From Betaproteobacteria bacterium (GTDB lineage Bacteria > Pseudomonadota > Gammaproteobacteria > Burkholderiales > Rhodocyclaceae), in contig JAHRYW010000002.1 of the NCBI GenBank assembly GCA_020621865.1, positions 74,778-138,777 of the forward strand: DNA of 64,000 nt, in the 5' to 3' direction. The notes under the pieces are model-generated. The model had not been told where the DNA came from. It saw nothing but the letters and a program-made list of their open reading frames with translations, and made no database searches. The first letter of the stretch is position 1; each line of letters opens with the position of its first letter. Shown here piece by piece: positions 3,777 through 53,696 of this stretch. A program made the position numbers and the translations under genes.

Positions 3777-6128
3777 TTACTCGGGAAGCTCCATGGCCGC
3801 GGGGAGTTTGCTGGCGATGGCCTGTTCGCGCAGATTCCGGGCGACTGCAGGGGCCGCTGCCTTGAGTTTTAGATAAGCCGTTTTGGCAGCAGCCGAGTCC
3901 CCCTCCAGCAGGTAGCTCATTGCGATAATTCCCTGGGCCGGAATTTGGACTTGCTGGCGAGCGAGAAGGAATTGGGCGTGTTCCCGCGATTTCGCCGGCA
4001 AGCGTGCAGCCAGGTAAGCCTGGCTGAGGTAAAAGCGAGCATCGGCGGCTGCGGGAGCCAAGACGATGGCCCTTTCCAGCGCGGGAATTGCCTGTCCCAG
4101 GTTTTTGCTCCGCAATTGCGCCTCGCCTAGGTTGATCCAGCCGTTAGCGAAATCCGGCCCCAGGCGGACAGTCGTTTCCAGGGCTTCGACTGCTTCAGGC
4201 AGGCGGCCCAGTTTCAGGAGGGAATAGCCTTTGCTGCTCCAGGCATTCACGTTGGTCGGGTCTTCCTTCAGGGCTCGTTCCAGATAACCTAGGGCCTGGG
4301 CGATGTCGCCCTTGCGGCCCAGTACCTTGGCGGTGGTAACGCACATTCCGACGTGCCTGGGATCGATCGCCTCGGCTCGGGCAAGTGTTTTCAGCGCGCC
4401 TTCCGTATCTCCCGCCTCGGCCCGGATATCACCCATGTTGACCAGGTCTCCAATGGCCGTCTTGCCCAATTCGTCCATCTTGGTGAAGGCCGCGGCAGCT
4501 TCGCGGAATTGGCGCTGGTCGGCAAGGGTGACGCCATAAATGGCCCATGCTGGCGCAAAATTCGGTGCCATGACCGTTGCCCGGCGCGCATCCTCCAGGG
4601 CTTCATTCTTGCGCCCCAAGGTGCGGCGGGTGATCGCGCGGTTGGTCAGCATTTCGACATTGTTCGGCGCAAGCTGCACTGCTCGATCGAACGCCGCTTC
4701 GGCCTCCGCCAGGCGCTTGACCTGCGTCAGCACATTGCCCAGTCCGCTCCAGTTCTCCGCCGAAGCGGGATTGATTGCAACTGCCTTGCGCAGGGCGTCT
4801 TCCGCTGGTCCCAGGCGTCCTCGCTTCAATTCGGCCAGGCCGATGGCAAGCTGCGTTGTCGATACGCCATGTTCGCCGCCGCTCGAAGCGAGCCGACTCG
4901 CATCGTCCGGTTTGCCGGAAGCAGCAAGTATCTGGGCAAGTCGCTGCTTCATTTCGGCGTCTTCCTCGCCCAGGCGTAGAGCCGTCTGGAAGGCTTGTTG
5001 GGCTGCTCCGGTATCCCCCCTCGCATCCTCAATCAATCCCAGGGTGCGCCAGGCCTGGCTCTGGCCCGGGGTCAGACGCAGGGCTTCCTTGATCTCGCGG
5101 CGCGCTTCGTCCTGTCTTCCTTCGGCGCGTAGCCAGTCGGCACGGAGCATTTTGGATTGCCCATCCCCTGGCTGCAGGTCCATTACTTGCCCCAGGGCCT
5201 TCTCGGCCTCGGCCTTGCGGCCTAGCGAGCGCAAGGTCGCGGCGTACTGTAGCCAGCCGAAGGCATTGTGGTCATCCAACTCAACCGCCTGCTTCAGGCT
5301 GGCGGCGGCTTCTTGAGGCCGGCCTTGGGCGCCTTGAGCCAGACCGAGGAAGGTGAATGCATCAGCCGCCCGGGGGCGAGTCGCCATCCAGGCCCGGGCA
5401 TGGGCTTCAAGGCGGGGCCAGTCATTCGCCTTTTGCAGGGAGACGGCTTCCTCGTTCCAGCGGTGATCCGCTGGCGGCGGTGCGGCAGGCTGCGGCACTT
5501 TACCCTCGGTCGCCAGACGCTCCAGGCCGTCTGATGAAAGGACCAGATTGAGATTTTGCCCGGTCCCTAGAATGGCGGTAGTAATACCGACCAGTTTGCC
5601 CTCGCGGTCAAAGAGTCCTCCGCCGCTGGAGCCTGGCGACACGGCGGCACTGGCGACTATCAATGGGTGTCCGTTCCGTACATCCCTGGTGGTGAGCAGA
5701 CCACGACTGACGGCCAAGCCCAGCCCCAGGGGGTTGCCAACCGCAAATACCGGCTCGCCTGCTGACAATGATGTGCTTGGGCGCAAGGCCACGGCGGGGG
5801 CGCTCAGGCCATCCACTCTCAATAGGCAGATATCTCGATCCGGATCCTGGCGCACCCATTTCCCGGAGAGTTCGCCGCTGGCTGACGCAACACGCAGCGA
5901 AGCTGCCGCCTGCACAACATGGCAGTTGGTGACTACTAGCGCATTGCCGATGACGACTCCGCTGCCCATGCCGTCGTCGGCTCCTTTGTGGTCTAGCGTC
6001 TTGATCGTGACCACGGATGGTGAAACGCGCGCAAACACCATTTGTGCGTCGTCGGCTGACGGTTCCCCGTGGGCGGCCGTTAAGGCCAGGCTCCAGGCCA
6101 AGCCTGCCACGATATTACATGTCTTCAC
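3777..6128 (-). CDS. Secreted trypsin-like serine protease domain fused to TPR repeats
   Basis: TNCHV (His), DRDICLLRV (Asp), SPGSSGGGLFD (Ser), followed by many TPR units. Confidence 0.85.
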   Translation of the reverse strand: MKTCNIVAGLAWSLALTAAHGEPSADDAQMVFARVSPSVVTIKTLDHKGADDGMGSGVVIGNALVVTNCHVVQAAASLRVASASGELSGKWVRQDPDRDICLLRVDGLSAPAVALRPSTSLSAGEPVFAVGNPLGLGLAVSRGLLTTRDVRNGHPLIVASAAVSPGSSGGGLFDREGKLVGITTAILGTGQNLNLVLSSDGLERLATEGKVPQPAAPPPADHRWNEEAVSLQKANDWPRLEAHARAWMATRPRAADAFTFLGLAQGAQGRPQEAAASLKQAVELDDHNAFGWLQYAATLRSLGRKAEAEKALGQVMDLQPGDGQSKMLRADWLRAEGRQDEARREIKEALRLTPGQSQAWRTLGLIEDARGDTGAAQQAFQTALRLGEEDAEMKQRLAQILAASGKPDDASRLASSGGEHGVSTTQLAIGLAELKRGRLGPAEDALRKAVAINPASAENWSGLGNVLTQVKRLAEAEAAFDRAVQLAPNNVEMLTNRAITRRTLGRKNEALEDARRATVMAPNFAPAWAIYGVTLADQRQFREAAAAFTKMDELGKTAIGDLVNMGDIRAEAGDTEGALKTLARAEAIDPRHVGMCVTTAKVLGRKGDIAQALGYLERALKEDPTNVNAWSSKGYSLLKLGRLPEAVEALETTVRLGPDFANGWINLGEAQLRSKNLGQAIPALERAIVLAPAAADARFYLSQAYLAARLPAKSREHAQFLLARQQVQIPAQGIIAMSYLLEGDSAAAKTAYLKLKAAAPAVARNLREQAIASKLPAAMELPE

Positions 6129-46889: not shown

Positions 46890-48950
46890 GTGGCCTGCCG
46901 GATAACAGCCGTGATTGCCGATAAGTTCCCCCTCTCGCTGTCGTGCTTGCCATGGTGTGCCTTGGGAGGGGCATTGTTGGCCTCGTTGTCCTTGTCAGCG
47001 CAGGCGGAGGATGACCCGTATTTTTCCAGCATGCCGGTGGTCGCCTCGGTCAGCCGCCTGCCGCAACGCCTGGCCGATGCACCGACTTCGGTCACCGTGA
47101 TCGACCGCGAGATGATCCGCAGCCTGCCGATCCGCGACCTGAACGACATCTTTCGGCTGGTACCGGGCTTCCAGACCTATCCCAACACCACCGAGGCCGC
47201 CCGCGTCACCTACCACGGCCTGACCGACGAGGAATTTTCGCCGCGCCTGCAGGTGCTGGTCGATGGCCGTTCGATGTACTCGCCGGCCTTTCGCAATGGC
47301 ACCAACTGGGCGCTGATCCCGGTGGCGCTGGAAGACATCGAGCGCATCGAGATCGTCCGCGGCACCAATGCCGTGTCTTATGGTTCCAATGCCTTCCTTG
47401 GCGTCATCAACATCATCACGGTCGACCCGGCGCTGGTGCGCGGCGTCTCGGTATCCACCAACTATGGCAACCAGAACGTCCGCGACCAGAGCGTGCGGGC
47501 CGGCGGCAAGCTGGGCGAAGCCGGTGATTACCGCTTCACCTTCCGTCAGCAGAACGACGATGGCCTGCGCAACCAGCACGACTGGATCGATTCCTATTAT
47601 TCGCGGCTGTTTGATTTTCGTGCCGACTTCACGCTGAGCGAACGCGACAGCCTGCAGGTCAGTGCCGGCCACGTTTCGGCGGTGACCCAGCGCGGCCGGC
47701 TCGATACCTCGACCTGGCAGAGTAGTCCGGGCAACCCGATACGCGACTTCGACCAGTCGAGCAGCTACCTGCAGTTTCAATGGCGGCGCGCCCTGTCGCT
47801 CGACTCGGACTTCGTGCTGCGCTACGCCTATTCCATCGACAAGGGCTCGGAAGCCTTCGTCAATCCGGGCGGCGGCACGCCCTACATTTACGATCCGTGG
47901 GGGGCGGAAGGCAGCCGCCATGAAATCGAGGCCTTGCACAACCTGCACCTGGCCGACACCGTCCGGCTCGCCTGGGGCGGCAGCTGGCGCCAGGATAGCG
48001 TCCGGGCGCAGACCACGCTGGCTGGCCAGGGCGATGTCAGCCGCGAGGTGACGCGCCTGTTCGGCAACATGGAATGGAAGCCGGTCCACTGGCTGACCGG
48101 TAATCTCGGCCTGTCGGGCGAACAGGATAGCCTGGCCGGCTTCCACTTCGCGCCGCGGGCCAGCTTGGCCTTCCATCTGAACCGGCAGAACACGCTGCGC
48201 ATCGGCGCTTCACGGGCCTACCGAACGGGCAGCACGGTCGACTACCGGGGCGACTGGTGGAACGGCAGCAAGTACCAGTTCCGCGGCGACCCGAACATGC
48301 CCTCCGAACGCATGGACACCTGGGAAATCGGCTATCTCGGCGACTGGCGCGACTGGCGGATGAGCCTGGATGTGCGGCTGTTCGACGAAAAGGTCCATAA
48401 CCGCCTGCTGGTCATCGATCGCAACGATGACGACAATACAATCCCGGATGCGATGACGCCGATCCAGGACGTGCGGATGCGCGGCGTCGAGTACCAGTGG
48501 CGCTGGCAGCCCATCGATTCGACCAAGCTGGTGTTCAGCCAGATGTTCATCGACATCGATGCGGAGTACCTGGCTTCGGCACTGGCCAACCCGAACAACA
48601 GCCTGCATAGCCCGCAGAAATTCAGCCATATCGACGAACTGTCCGAATACGGCACGCCGCATCGCTCAACCTCGCTGCTGCTGATCCAGAAGCTGCCCTA
48701 CGGCCTGGAGTTTTCGGCCGCGGCCTATTGGCAGAGCAAGATGAAATGGTCGATCAACACCGAGGCCCTGAAGTATCACCGGGTCGATACCAAGCTGGCC
48801 TACCCGTTCCGCGTCGCCGGGATGGGCGGGGAACTGGCCTGGACCATCCAGTCGCTGAACGGCGCGCATTTCGAGTACAAGGCCTACAACGTCCCGGCCG
48901 ACCGGATTGTCGAGCGCCGGCAGTGGATCAGCCTGCGCCTCGATTTCTGA
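46890..48950 (+). CDS. TonB-dependent receptor
   Basis: Plug domain TSVTVIDREMIRSLPIRDLNDIFRLVPGFQ and beta-barrel C-terminus; GTG start at 46890 or 46911 uncertain. Confidence 0.9.
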   Translation: MACRITAVIADKFPLSLSCLPWCALGGALLASLSLSAQAEDDPYFSSMPVVASVSRLPQRLADAPTSVTVIDREMIRSLPIRDLNDIFRLVPGFQTYPNTTEAARVTYHGLTDEEFSPRLQVLVDGRSMYSPAFRNGTNWALIPVALEDIERIEIVRGTNAVSYGSNAFLGVINIITVDPALVRGVSVSTNYGNQNVRDQSVRAGGKLGEAGDYRFTFRQQNDDGLRNQHDWIDSYYSRLFDFRADFTLSERDSLQVSAGHVSAVTQRGRLDTSTWQSSPGNPIRDFDQSSSYLQFQWRRALSLDSDFVLRYAYSIDKGSEAFVNPGGGTPYIYDPWGAEGSRHEIEALHNLHLADTVRLAWGGSWRQDSVRAQTTLAGQGDVSREVTRLFGNMEWKPVHWLTGNLGLSGEQDSLAGFHFAPRASLAFHLNRQNTLRIGASRAYRTGSTVDYRGDWWNGSKYQFRGDPNMPSERMDTWEIGYLGDWRDWRMSLDVRLFDEKVHNRLLVIDRNDDDNTIPDAMTPIQDVRMRGVEYQWRWQPIDSTKLVFSQMFIDIDAEYLASALANPNNSLHSPQKFSHIDELSEYGTPHRSTSLLLIQKLPYGLEFSAAAYWQSKMKWSINTEALKYHRVDTKLAYPFRVAGMGGELAWTIQSLNGAHFEYKAYNVPADRIVERRQWISLRLDF

Positions 48951-48962
48951 TCGGGACCGTCC

Positions 48963-49691
48963 TCAGAAGAGGACCGTTGCCCGCACCCAGGCATCGGGCA
49001 GCACGCCGACGATCTGCGCTTCCAGCCATTTGTCGGCACCCGACAGAATCGCCAGCCCGGTGAGCATGATGATCACACCGAAGGCCTTCTTGATGCCGTC
49101 GATGCGTTGCAGCACCCAGCCGCGGGCGGCATTGAAGCCCCGGCGCGAGGCGTAGGCGACGGCGACCAGCGGGATCGCGGCCCCGAGGCCGAACAGGCCG
49201 AGGATGATGCCGCCGCGCATGGCGCCGCCTTCGCTGGCGACCAGGGTCAGTGCCGAGGCGAGCAGCGGGCCGGAGCAGGGGCTCCAGACCAGCCCAAGCA
49301 CGCCGCCGAGCAGCAGCGCGCCGCCCAGCGAGCCGCCATCCAGCCGGGAGGAGGCAGCATTGGCGCTGGAGGCGATGGGCAGCATCCATTCCGTGAAGCG
49401 CTGGTTGAGCACCGGCACCAGCATGACCAGGCCGAAGGCGATCAGCATCCAGGCGCCGAACAGGCGGACGCTGTCCGAGTCGATGCCGAGCGCCGGGCCA
49501 AGGGCGCCGAGGACGATGCCGATCAGCGCGAAGGACGTCGCCATGCCGATCCCCATGGCGACCGGGGCCAGGCGGTTGGCCTGTACCGCCCCGCCGATGA
49601 CCAGCGGCAGGATCGGGAAGACGCAGGGAGACAGCGTCGTCAGGCTGCCGGCGACCAGGCTCAGGCCGAGGTGGGCGAGCGGGATGTCCAT
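48963..49691 (-). CDS. CcdA/DsbD-type thiol:disulfide transmembrane protein
   Basis: LSLVAGSLTTLSPCVFPILPLVIGGAVQ; LGLVWSPCSGPLLASAL. Confidence 0.88.
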   Translation of the reverse strand: MDIPLAHLGLSLVAGSLTTLSPCVFPILPLVIGGAVQANRLAPVAMGIGMATSFALIGIVLGALGPALGIDSDSVRLFGAWMLIAFGLVMLVPVLNQRFTEWMLPIASSANAASSRLDGGSLGGALLLGGVLGLVWSPCSGPLLASALTLVASEGGAMRGGIILGLFGLGAAIPLVAVAYASRRGFNAARGWVLQRIDGIKKAFGVIIMLTGLAILSGADKWLEAQIVGVLPDAWVRATVLF

Positions 49692-49703: not shown

Positions 49704-50084
49704 TTATTTGGCGCTGTCGAGGACGGCGCGCAGGGCTTTCGGATCGGTGTCGCCGGCCAGCCGTCCGGTTTCCCTGGCGCCCTTGTAGGCGATCACCGTC
49801 GATTGCGTGCGCACGCCGAGCTGGCGCTTCAGTTCACGCTCCTTGTCGTAATTGACGATGAGCAGCGTTCCCGGCACCGAGGCGTCGCCCTTCCAACCGT
49901 TGAACACCTTTTCCTGGGCGCGGCAGGTCGGGCACCAGTCGGCATGGAAATGCAGGGCCACCGCTTCGCCGGCCTTCTGTTTGGCGGCCAGGGCTTCCGC
50001 AGCATAGGGCTGGATGTCCAAGGCCTGGGCCAGGTTGAAGGCGGCCGACAGGGCTATGGCGGCGAGGGTGACGATGGTTTTCAT
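49704..50084 (-). CDS. Periplasmic thioredoxin-like protein
   Basis: Signal peptide, VALHFHADWCPTCRAQEKVFNGWKGD. Confidence 0.9.
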   Translation of the reverse strand: MKTIVTLAAIALSAAFNLAQALDIQPYAAEALAAKQKAGEAVALHFHADWCPTCRAQEKVFNGWKGDASVPGTLLIVNYDKERELKRQLGVRTQSTVIAYKGARETGRLAGDTDPKALRAVLDSAK

Positions 50085-50111: not shown

Positions 50112-50141
50112 ATTAGTCGTCGGCACGGCGAAAAACTTACA
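50112..50141 (-). promoter_or_regulatory. Putative ECF-sigma promoter TGTAAG-N16-CGACTAAT upstream of thioredoxin/CcdA genes
   Basis: Identical boxes and spacing to the element at 52388-52417. Confidence 0.72.
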
Positions 50142-50155
50142 GCCGCGATGTCGCT

Positions 50156-50920
50156 TCAGATCAGGCAACCGAGAACGATGCCTTGACGGCGCAGGTCGTC
50201 GAGCAGCGCGGCGCCGTGGGCCAGCAGTTGCTCCGGGGCCGGGTGCTGCAGTTCGGCGGCAATCTGCCGGATGGCCGCTTCGCCAGTGGTCGGCGCAGCG
50301 GCGAGCAGGGCCAGCAGGCGGGCGGTGACGGCGTTGATGGCGCTGAACTGCACGGCGTCGTCGGCATCGCGATAGACGGCGAGATGCGTCGGTTGCGCCT
50401 TGCGCGGCCGGTAGTCGGGGCCAATGCGGTGCACCGGCCAGGCGTAGGCCAGATTGAGCAGCGCCGGGTTGAGGGCGACCGGGGCGGTCAGCAGGTCGCC
50501 GGCCGGATCGTGGGCGGGGATCGGGCAATCCATCACGTCGACGGCCAGTTCGGCCCATTCGTAATGCGCCAGTTCGGCCAGCCAGGCGGGCAGCGACAGG
50601 CGGATGTCGCCTTCGGCCAGGTAGCGGGTGAATTCGCGGGGGATTTCGCGGAACCAGGGCGTGTGCAGCGGCCAGTCGCGGTAGAAGGTGCGGGTCAGGC
50701 GGCGCCAGCGCTGCTCGCCGAGGATGGCCCGGCTGACCGGGAAGCAGGCGTCGACGAAGCCGCAGATGTTGTTGAACAGCAGCTCGTTGTACACCGCCAT
50801 CCGCCGGGCCGGCACGCCGGCCGGGCGCGCTACGTGGTGCGGGTCGCGCAGGTGGCCGGCGAAGGCGCGCTGGAAATTCTGGAAATCGGCCTGAAGGCCG
50901 GGTTGGTGGGCAGCGTTCAT
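50156..50920 (-). CDS. bufC: DUF2063 (BufC-like) RiPP maturation partner protein
   Basis: LQADFQNFQRAFAGHLRDP...RRMAVYNELLFNNICGFVDACFPVSRAILGEQRWRRLTRTFYRD. Confidence 0.9.
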   Translation of the reverse strand: MNAAHQPGLQADFQNFQRAFAGHLRDPHHVARPAGVPARRMAVYNELLFNNICGFVDACFPVSRAILGEQRWRRLTRTFYRDWPLHTPWFREIPREFTRYLAEGDIRLSLPAWLAELAHYEWAELAVDVMDCPIPAHDPAGDLLTAPVALNPALLNLAYAWPVHRIGPDYRPRKAQPTHLAVYRDADDAVQFSAINAVTARLLALLAAAPTTGEAAIRQIAAELQHPAPEQLLAHGAALLDDLRRQGIVLGCLI

Positions 50921-51762
50921 CAGGCGGCCTTCCGGCAAATGGCGGCGGCCTGCAGGCGGGCGATCTGCTCGACTTCTGCGGTCAGCACCGGCAGGTCGGG
51001 GATGTTGAAGTCGCGCTCCAGGCAGGTCGGCACCTCGCCGCCGATCCGGGCGTAGGCCGCTTCGAGCAGGCTCCACACCGGGTCGATCACGTCGGCGCCG
51101 TGGGTGTCGATTAGCAGGCCGTCCGGTTCGACCCAGTGGCCGGCGACATGGACGTAGCAGGTGCGTTCCAGCGGCAGCGCGTTCATGAAGGCGAAGGGAT
51201 CGAAGCCGAAATTGCAGCTATTGACGTAGATGTTGTTGACGTCGAGATGCAGCAGGCAGTCTGCCTCGCGGACGATGGCGGAGATGAAGTCGGTCTCGCT
51301 CATTTCGGCGCCCGGCGGTGCGACATAGTAGGAGGCGTTTTCGATGCCGATGCGCTGGCCGAGGATGTCCTGCGCCCGTTTGATCCGCTCGGCCGTCCAT
51401 CTGACGGCATTTTCGGTCAGCGGGATCGGCAGCAGGTCGTAGAGGTGGCTGTCATCGGCGCACCACGACAGGTGTTCGGTATAGAGCGTCATGCCGTGTT
51501 CGGCCATGAAGGCCTTGATGCGGTGGAGCAGCGCTTCGTCGAGCGGGCCGGGGCCGCCGAGCGACAGCGACAGGCCGTGGCAGACGAAAGGATAGCGCTC
51601 GGTGAAATGGCGCAGCTCCTTGCCGGAGCGGCCGCCCATGCCGGCCCAGTTTTCCGGGGCCAGTTCGAAGAAGCGGATGGCTTCGGGGACGGCAGTTTTC
51701 AGCGGGGCGATCAGTTCGCGGCGAAAGCCGAGACCGGCGCCGTGGGCATGGCGTGCCAACAT
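50920..51762 (-). CDS. bufB: DUF692 multinuclear non-heme iron-dependent oxidase (MNIO, BufB-like)
   Basis: AGLGFRRELIAPL, FFELAPENW, HGLSLSLGGPGPLDEALL, YTEHLSW, HLDVNNIYVN, HVAGHW. Confidence 0.94.
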   Translation of the reverse strand: MLARHAHGAGLGFRRELIAPLKTAVPEAIRFFELAPENWAGMGGRSGKELRHFTERYPFVCHGLSLSLGGPGPLDEALLHRIKAFMAEHGMTLYTEHLSWCADDSHLYDLLPIPLTENAVRWTAERIKRAQDILGQRIGIENASYYVAPPGAEMSETDFISAIVREADCLLHLDVNNIYVNSCNFGFDPFAFMNALPLERTCYVHVAGHWVEPDGLLIDTHGADVIDPVWSLLEAAYARIGGEVPTCLERDFNIPDLPVLTAEVEQIARLQAAAICRKAA

Positions 51763-51831: not shown

Positions 51832-52134
51832 TTACTTCTTGGCGCCGCAGGAACCGTCTTTCTTCTTGTCGCCGCCGCAGGCGCCGTCTTTTTTCTTGTC
51901 GGCCGCGGCCTTGGCTTCTGCCGCCTTCTTGTCCGCACCGCACTTGGCTTCGGCAGCCTTCTTGTTAGCGCCGCAATTGGCGTCCTTCATCTTGGTGTCG
52001 GCTTCGGCCAACTGATAGCCGACTTCCAGTTTGCTGGCGCCAAAGGGATTTTCGGCGGCGTGGACCGTCGGGGTCAGGGCGATGGCGGCAAAGGCGGAAC
52101 CGACGGCGATGGAAATGATGTTTTGCTTTTTCAT
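51832..52134 (-). CDS. Bufferin-like RiPP precursor: signal peptide plus Lys/Ala/Cys-Gly repeats
   Basis: MKKQNIISIAVGSAFAAIALTPTVHAAENPFGASKLEVGYQLAEADTKMKDANCGANKKAAEAKCGADKKAAEAKAAADKKKDGACGGDKKKDGSCGAKK directly upstream of the MNIO gene. Confidence 0.88.
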   Translation of the reverse strand: MKKQNIISIAVGSAFAAIALTPTVHAAENPFGASKLEVGYQLAEADTKMKDANCGANKKAAEAKCGADKKAAEAKAAADKKKDGACGGDKKKDGSCGAKK

Positions 52135-52165: not shown

Positions 52166-52360
52166 TCAGTCCTTCTGACCCATCCAGGCGCCCATCGCCT
52201 GACGCATGAAGGCGAACTGCTTTTCAGCCCGCCGGCAGCCGACGCAAATCGCCAGGTGCAAACGGAATTGCACACGCTCACCGAGGGTGAGCTTGCGTTC
52301 CATTTGAAGCGAGGCGAGGCGGGTGGCTTCCTTGCAGCTGATCATTTCAGTTCCAGTCAT
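52166..52360 (-). CDS. Small zinc-finger anti-sigma-like protein
   Basis: HLAICVGCRRAEKQF (HxxxCxxC ZAS-like), 64 aa, divergent from ECF sigma gene. Confidence 0.75.
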   Translation of the reverse strand: MTGTEMISCKEATRLASLQMERKLTLGERVQFRLHLAICVGCRRAEKQFAFMRQAMGAWMGQKD

Positions 52361-52387: not shown

Positions 52388-52417
52388 ATTAGTCGGCGCG
52401 ACCATGAAAACCTTACA
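52388..52417 (-). promoter_or_regulatory. Putative ECF-sigma promoter TGTAAG-N16-CGACTAAT upstream of anti-sigma/precursor/MNIO operon
   Basis: Revcomp of CTTACA...ATTAGTCG at 52412-52417 and 52388-52395. Confidence 0.75.
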
Positions 52418-52431
52418 AAATTTTTTGCAGT

Positions 52432-53034
52432 ATGATCCCGTGCTACAAAACACGGCGAGCCGACATGCCCTTGGACCCCCTGCAAGACCCCGAGTTTCTC
52501 ACAAGCCTGCGCCGCGACATGCTGCGTTTCGCCGAAATCCAGCTGCGCGACAAGGCGCAGGCCGAGGATGCCGTGCAGGAAGCGCTGGCCGGCGCCCTGC
52601 AGGGGCGTGAAAAATTTGCCTCGCGCGCCTCGCTGCGCACCTGGGTGCTGTCCATCCTGAAAAACAAGATCATCGACGTGTTGCGCCGCAAGGGACGCGA
52701 GAATGCTACGGTCGAGCCGGAAAACGGCCCAAATTTGAATTCCTGGTTTGACGACCGCGAACACTGGACCGAGGATACCCGCCCGTCGGAGTGGCAGTCG
52801 CCGCAGGAAGCCATGGAAAGCAAGCAGTTCTGGGAGGTTTTCGAGGCTTGCCTGTACCGCCTGCCGGAAGCCAGCGCCCGGATCTTTACGATGCGCGAGG
52901 TGCTCGGTTTCGACACCGATGAGATCTGCGCGACCCTCGGCATCACCAGCAACAACTGTTTCGTCCAGCTGCATCGGGCCCGGCTGGCCCTGCGCGCCTG
53001 CCTCGGCGCCAACTGGTTCGGCGAAGCGGCCTGA
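52432..53034 (+). CDS. ECF-family RNA polymerase sigma factor
   Basis: AEDAVQEALAGALQGREKFASRASLRTWVLSILKNKIIDVLRR and FWEVFEACLYRLPEASARIFTMREVLGFDTDEICATLGITSNNCFVQLHRARLALRACL; start may be 52465. Confidence 0.93.
   Translation: MIPCYKTRRADMPLDPLQDPEFLTSLRRDMLRFAEIQLRDKAQAEDAVQEALAGALQGREKFASRASLRTWVLSILKNKIIDVLRRKGRENATVEPENGPNLNSWFDDREHWTEDTRPSEWQSPQEAMESKQFWEVFEACLYRLPEASARIFTMREVLGFDTDEICATLGITSNNCFVQLHRARLALRACLGANWFGEAA
52702..52742 (+). repeat. Dispersed repeat copy J, short subtype, in frame in ECF sigma inter-domain linker
   Basis: AATGCTACGGTCGAGCCGGAAAACGGCCCAAATTTGAATTC encoding NATVEPENGPNLNS. Confidence 0.88.
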
Positions 53035-53045
53035 CGGCCTCCGGC

Positions 53046-53696
53046 ATGGCACGACGGATGATGCGTGCCGGCCTGCTCTGCGGCATTCTGGCGCCGCTGC
53101 TCTGGGCGGCGGTCATCGTCATCGCCGGCGAACTGCGCCCCGGCTTCGATCATGTCGCGCAATACATCAGCGAACTCGGCGAGCGCGGCAGCTCGAACGC
53201 CGCTTTCATGCGCTACGCTGGGTTCGTCGCCAGCGGTGCGCTCCACGTTGCCTATGCAGCGGCTTTTTATGCCGCCTTGCGCCGGCTGAGCGAGCGTCGT
53301 TTCCTGGTTTTGCTGGTTGCCGCGCTGATCGCGCTGAATGGCCTGGGCCGGATCGGCGCCGGCCTGTTCGCCTGCGAACCGGGCTGCCTGGCGCCGGCGG
53401 TGACCGAGCAGCGCCTGCACAGCCTGGCGGCGACCATCGCCTTCCTGGCCATTGCCGCTGCCGCCTTGCTCGGCGGCCTACTATTCCGCGATACCCGGGG
53501 GCTGCGGGGGCTGGCGCCGTATTCGGTGGCCACCGGCATCGCCGGCCTGCTCTTCATGGGGCTGATGATGTCGGCGGGCGATGTTGGCCGTGTCGGCCTG
53601 CATGAGCGCCTGGCTTCCGGCGTCCTGTCGCTGTGGGTATTGATGACCGCCCTGCGCCTTGCCTCCAGCGAGCGGCAAACGGCAGATTCAGGGTGA
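53046..53696 (+). CDS. DUF998 membrane protein
   Basis: 216 aa, HVAQYISELGERGSSNAAFMRYAGF, TM-rich. Confidence 0.82.
   Translation: MARRMMRAGLLCGILAPLLWAAVIVIAGELRPGFDHVAQYISELGERGSSNAAFMRYAGFVASGALHVAYAAAFYAALRRLSERRFLVLLVAALIALNGLGRIGAGLFACEPGCLAPAVTEQRLHSLAATIAFLAIAAAALLGGLLFRDTRGLRGLAPYSVATGIAGLLFMGLMMSAGDVGRVGLHERLASGVLSLWVLMTALRLASSERQTADSG

Follow-up and report, generated by a model that had tools for sequence, protein, structure and literature searches.

The 64,000-nucleotide stretch analyzed here (the window; contig JAHRYW010000002.1 of assembly GCA_020621865.1, from a betaproteobacterium of the Rhodocyclaceae) carries on its minus strand a gene for a peptide of 100 amino acids that is very probably the precursor of a captophorin, a copper-binding peptide of the HvfA/EGKCG type containing 5-thiooxazoles. 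The assignment is drawn from the sequence of the locus, in that the gene shares its operon with genes for an HvfB-family maturase and an HvfC-family partner protein. We further consider it highly likely that these genes form a single system, in which the precursor would be modified by the adjacent HvfB–HvfC pair, exported and used to bind Cu(I), within an oxidant and copper regulon governed by an extracytoplasmic function (ECF) sigma factor. The features at the center of this proposal are as follows.

51832..52134, minus strand: probable captophorin (HvfA-like) precursor, 100 amino acids with four Cys-Gly motifs
52057..52134, minus strand: Sec-type signal peptide, residues 1–26, judged by eye from the sequence pattern and from the leader kept in relatives
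51892..51924, minus strand: Cys-less unit, residues 71–81 (AAEAKAAADKK), from the sequence and comparison with relatives
50920..51762, minus strand: HvfB-family MNIO (DUF692) maturase (NF003818, 395.8 bits, cut-off 360; PF05114, 329 bits)
50156..50920, minus strand: HvfC-family (DUF2063) partner protein (NF050145, 298.2 bits, cut-off 142)

The Precursor and Its Probable Maturase

Translation from 52134 to 51832 yields, in order, a Lys-Lys start, a hydrophobic stretch, the sequence VHA/AE (by eye the likely signal-peptidase site), the conserved segment NPFGASKLEVGYQLAEAD, and a region of repeats. The ATG at 52134 is common to close relatives; in-frame GTG codons also exist upstream. The four cysteines (residues 54, 65, 86, and 96, spaced by 11, 21, and 10) lie in the pentamers DANCG, EAKCG, DGACG, and DGSCG, which are single motifs in units of 10–11 residues, and each has an acidic residue at position −3 and glycine at +1. 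Compared with 20,000 shuffled versions of the core, both its periodicity (P ~1e-4) and the presence of Gly after all four cysteines (P ~1.5e-4) stand out. The core sequence quoted in a first-pass annotation, made from the letters alone, is the exact translation of this gene, and its four CG motifs and N-terminal Sec signal (the latter by eye) are both found.

The locus combines an adjoining MNIO gene, a DUF2063/PME1 partner, and a Cys-rich repeat precursor with a Sec signal (by eye), the marks of a captophorin locus; repeated EGKCG or Lys-Cys pentamers are absent from the precursor, EAKCG occurring once. The maturase, whose best relative in the PDB is 3BWW, keeps the residues of the Lys-Cys type as compared with PMC13097082: the arginine pair R14–R15, the catalytic aspartate D251, and the phenylalanine F252. 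It scores under the cut-offs of the models for the bufferin, ApyH, chryseobasin, and methanobactin maturase types. The HvfB gene is the single PF05114 match and the HvfC gene the single DUF2063 match in the 2.9-Mb draft genome, which is only 74.65% complete, so that further genes of either kind could be missing from it.

The first-pass annotation had likened the peptide to EGKCG-type bufferin precursors. The kinship in Cys-Gly repeats stands, but bufferin proper (DUF2282, Buf_6/12Cys) does not, a Pfam scan of the precursor having given no family match, DUF2282 (bufferin 1) included, and HvfA/captophorin fits better. A β-helix, as proposed for EGKCG relatives, or a helix found no support in structure prediction from an 11-row alignment, which was uninformative (mean predicted local distance difference test score 47, predicted template-modeling score 0.17).

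Comparison of homologs, the check that the first-pass annotation had proposed, gave repeat numbers that vary while Cys-Gly is kept, the opposite of the outcome that it had named as refuting its reading: some 50 relatives have 4–10 cysteines, nearly always as Cys-Gly, in a variable number of units. Close orthologs of the maturase (75%–89% identity) are present in 21 of 35 other genomes of the genus, one as a fragment. In the 20 regions examined around them the precursors have the leader in common and mostly 4–8 core cysteines, in one of two styles: paired motifs (DGKCGEAKCG, spacing 5 and then ~10–18) or single motifs (spacing 9–11). The window falls in a mostly single-motif group of the maturase tree. 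Its nearest relatives (L082 and L107; L and G numbers are our labels for loci and genomes) have maturases 92%–94% identical to its own, and their precursors, built of six regularly spaced single motifs, contain no Cys-less unit. Among named relatives, an Azonexus metagenome-assembled genome has the closest maturase. At L063 (~5536–5859, G020) the leader and the repeats of the precursor are out of frame with each other, through either a frameshift or an error of assembly.

A Second Precursor Without a Local Maturase

The window's genome encodes a second precursor at G000:C14:86524 (L078, 7435–7755), which has 106 amino acids, the leader of the window precursor, and six cysteines in three paired cassettes, and which scores 55.4 against NF050137, the NCBI HvfA-domain model (cut-off 19.5). 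It is followed by HvfX (L078, 6850–7425; NF050144, 136.3 bits, cut-off 80) and adjoins genes for a TolC-type outer-membrane protein and a CusA/CzcA-family resistance-nodulation-division pump (1043.9 bits, cut-off 701). No maturase gene was found in the 14 kb examined there. Given that the draft has no other maturase, the HvfB–HvfC pair of the window would modify this second precursor too. Both of the nearest relatives have the same precursor–HvfX arrangement; the precursor is made of three cassettes in L156 and of two in L155, so that orthologs differ by one whole cassette (six versus four cysteines), a direct case of repeat-number variation. In the syntenic place in G003 the promoter and HvfX are kept, without a precursor.

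Is the Window Precursor a Substrate?

Pairs of the HvfB–HvfC type install thiooxazoles on the cysteines of EGKCG peptides, each cysteine losing 4 Da, and yield products that bind copper (PMC13097082, PMC12538549). By our proposal, the pair in the window would form a 5-thiooxazole from the cysteine of each [D/E]-x-x-C-G motif (−4 Da each, ~−16 Da in total), the precursor would be exported via Sec, and the thiols of the heterocycles would bind excess Cu(I) in the periplasm. We expect all four cysteines to be modified because the residues of the maturase match its group and the motifs keep the acid and the glycine. The characterized enzyme accepts Ala, Thr, and Arg before Cys.

The peptide resembles FonA/HvfA (captophorins of the Lys-Cys/EGKCG group; PMC13097082, PMC13419390) in its Cys-Gly repeats, its HvfB/HvfC partners, and the Lys-Cys-type residues of its maturase, and the oxazolins (PMC12452194) in its Sec signal. 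It differs from FonA/HvfA in that its core lacks EGKCG, contains a Cys-less unit, and has single motifs every 10–11 residues rather than pairs, and in that its operon lacks HvfX. Several observations weigh against its being a substrate that binds copper. Lys precedes Cys in only one of the four motifs, and the Asn and Ser found before Cys are not among the variants named in the accessible part of the report on the characterized enzyme. The minimal FonA substrate required two closely spaced motifs, whereas the gaps between motifs here are 10–21 residues. The precursor scores 14.2 bits against NF050137, below the cut-off, and copper specificity is taken by analogy from characterized relatives. 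On sequence grounds, operon and enzyme mark the peptide as a captophorin, but it falls short of the HvfA/EGKCG motif and profile tests.

These shortcomings could mean that the window precursor is a decaying paralog that is losing its sites while the canonical six-Cys second precursor does the work, as its four cysteines against six in the nearest relatives, its Cys-less unit, and the three cysteines without a preceding Lys might suggest. We hold this to be improbable: the gene sits in the operon of the only maturase found, its frame and leader are intact, the ratio of nonsynonymous to synonymous substitution relative to L082 is 0.29 overall (leader, 0.15), and L082 and L107 retain six cysteines in the same non-Lys style. 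That the metal is bound by unmodified cysteines, in the manner of a small metallothionein, with the MNIO enzyme acting on the second precursor only, seems to us very unlikely. The Lys of the canonical motif is indeed missing at three of four sites, but the precursor lies in the maturase's own operon, every motif keeps the acid and the glycine important for the characterized enzyme, and the leader is that of the canonical precursor.

Origin of the Cys-Less Unit

The 21-residue gap between cysteines equals two units, and hence one unit of the precursor is without its Cys. In this unit (A71–K81), which is of the same length as the others, Ala76–Ala77 stand where they have Cys-Gly, just as the first-pass annotation had described; under the proposed modification by HvfB–HvfC it would stay unmodified and serve as a spacer. 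The annotation's further statement, that a modification site was lost, we can call likely only. The corresponding third unit of Dechloromonas sp. H13 (L088) reads AEAKVAADKK; G024, sister to H13 in the tree, has a Cys at that place. Both Cys-less units are at least four base substitutions away from Cys-Gly codons, and with that many differences loss of a site and duplication of a spacer both fit. Duplication of an Ala/Lys/Glu spacer is thus a plausible origin, if not the one we favor; the resemblance of both units to adjoining AAEA spacer DNA speaks for it, whereas the window unit keeps its exact length and the flanking EAK..ADKK register, and other relatives carry Cys-Gly inside EAKxxADKK units. 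In the maturase tree the window groups with L082/L107 (support 100/95) and H13 with G024 (100/91). Since these are separate groups, the simplest reading is that the two Cys-less units probably arose in two independent events.

A Shared Promoter Motif and a Proposed Oxidant Regulon

The remaining features of the locus are the following.

52166..52360, minus strand: zinc-finger anti-sigma factor, first gene of the operon (NF052368, PF13490)
52432..53034, plus strand: ECF sigma factor of the TIGR02943 family, divergent (profile matches)
49704..50084, minus strand: periplasmic thioredoxin-like protein with WCPTC (PF00085)
48963..49691, minus strand: CcdA-like transmembrane electron carrier, DsbD_TM (PF02683)
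52389..52417, minus strand: ECF-type promoter motif before the anti-sigma/precursor operon (upstream comparison and pattern search)
50113..50141, minus strand: ECF-type promoter motif before the thioredoxin gene (pattern search)

The order on the minus strand is anti-sigma factor, precursor, HvfB, HvfC, thioredoxin-like protein, and CcdA-like protein. Side-by-side comparison of upstream regions revealed the motif TGTAAG-N16/17-CGACYAA before these operons. Searching the window's genome with the looser pattern TGTAA-N17/18-CGACYAA gave four sites, and none for the reversed control. The four head genes with a common theme: the anti-sigma/precursor operon, the thioredoxin–CcdA genes, the second precursor with HvfX, and a gene for a periplasmic MsrA–thioredoxin–MsrB fusion (L113, 61–1422; G000:C8). 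Across 40 genomes of the genus many sites likewise lead to precursor operons, thioredoxin–CcdA, MsrAB, or an MsrP-like protein, and some lead to unrelated genes. The genes resembling that for the molybdoenzyme MsrP (YedY) behind the motif in L123, L124, L140, and L141 were identified by eye only.

We infer that the sigma factor encoded at 52432 reads this motif. Held by its zinc-finger anti-sigma factor, it would drive the window precursor, the second precursor, HvfX, thioredoxin–CcdA, and MsrAB, a regulon that would answer periplasmic oxidants and copper and in which thioredoxin–CcdA may keep the thiols of the peptides reduced. RpoE2 of H. influenzae (PMC7907618) and sigma-E of Neisseria (PMC2893595) control msrAB and a DoxX-containing HvfABC-type cluster; given this like content, the regulon is already known in outline. 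Common to these systems and ours are an ECF sigma factor with a small zinc-binding anti-sigma factor, msrAB, and a DoxX–HvfABC-type cluster, but in the window the sigma gene is divergent from that for the anti-sigma factor, the cluster is split over two loci, and thioredoxin–CcdA is added.

In L062, L067, L068, L072, L074, L077, and L099 a different ECF sigma/anti-sigma pair (~40%–55% identical) lies downstream of HvfC, and these loci are without the divergent pair. Directly after the sigma gene (window 53046–53696) comes a gene for a DUF998 membrane protein, which in this position is shared only with L082 and L107, the two nearest relatives. Convergent with the CcdA gene, at 46890–48950, lies a gene for a TonB-dependent receptor related to the TOL_0244 family, though under its cut-off; G003 (L065) has a receptor 79% identical to it in the same place.

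HvfX and Thioredoxin–CcdA

Thioredoxin–CcdA delivers electrons to the periplasm. HvfX directly follows HvfC in 12 of 15 loci of the genus with paired or mixed cores versus none of 10 single-motif loci (Fisher P ~1e-4). A thioredoxin gene lies within 3 kb of HvfC in seven of the 10 single-motif loci, the window included (five within ~100 bp), and at 5.2 kb in G024; close orthologs of the thioredoxin are present in 13 of the 21 other genomes with the maturase and in none of the 14 without it (P ~2e-4). These tests were framed after the data had been seen and ignore shared ancestry, and we therefore treat them as leads only. The placement of G008, single-motif and without HvfX, among relatives that bear HvfX suggests at least two separate switches.

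There are counterexamples: G003 and G010 combine thioredoxin with paired or mixed cores and have no local HvfX, the Limnohabitans loci L084 and L087 carry both HvfX and thioredoxin, and the genomes of the window, L082, and L107 retain HvfX at the second locus. A rule that every genome with the maturase has HvfX or thioredoxin–CcdA holds in the 22 genomes of the genus checked and fails outside it, where G065, G071, and G074 have neither. As a tentative proposal, which we regard as rather doubtful, captophorins of this lineage might have exchanged HvfX (DoxX) for thioredoxin–CcdA as their redox partner, which would keep the thiols of the thiooxazoles reduced or recycle their copper; the swap would accompany the change from a paired to a single, Lys-poor core, and one maturase would serve two precursors at separate loci. 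We found no paper joining MNIO, thioredoxin, and CcdA in the literature searched, outside which most subscription journals lay, and so the link to the captophorin family may be new.

Discussion

Two other systems invite comparison. Like the window precursor, bulbicupramide MmrA of Microbulbifer has a conserved leader and core repeats in which the number of cysteines differs; these number five to eight, and each loses four hydrogens (PMC12538549). It differs in having two-Cys EGKCG cassettes in which every Cys is modified, and the part of the account consulted describes no Cys-less unit. The Buf_EGKCG/oxazolin family (PMC12452194) shares the repeated Cys-Gly precursor, the signal peptide, the MNIO enzyme, and the DUF2063 partner; its account names neither thioredoxin nor DsbD, which sets the window locus apart. 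Precursor genes distant from any MNIO gene are known among bufferins (PMC12452194).

What was already known, from Haemophilus and Neisseria, is the regulon; moderately noteworthy here are the two-precursor arrangement and the exchange of HvfX and thioredoxin–CcdA. With HvfX replaced by, or set apart from, a pathway whose chemistry is known, the need of captophorins for a reducing partner becomes testable. Moreover, one maturase with two precursors, the one paired and Lys-rich and the other sparse and Lys-poor, would offer a natural test of substrate rules that have so far been derived by mutation.
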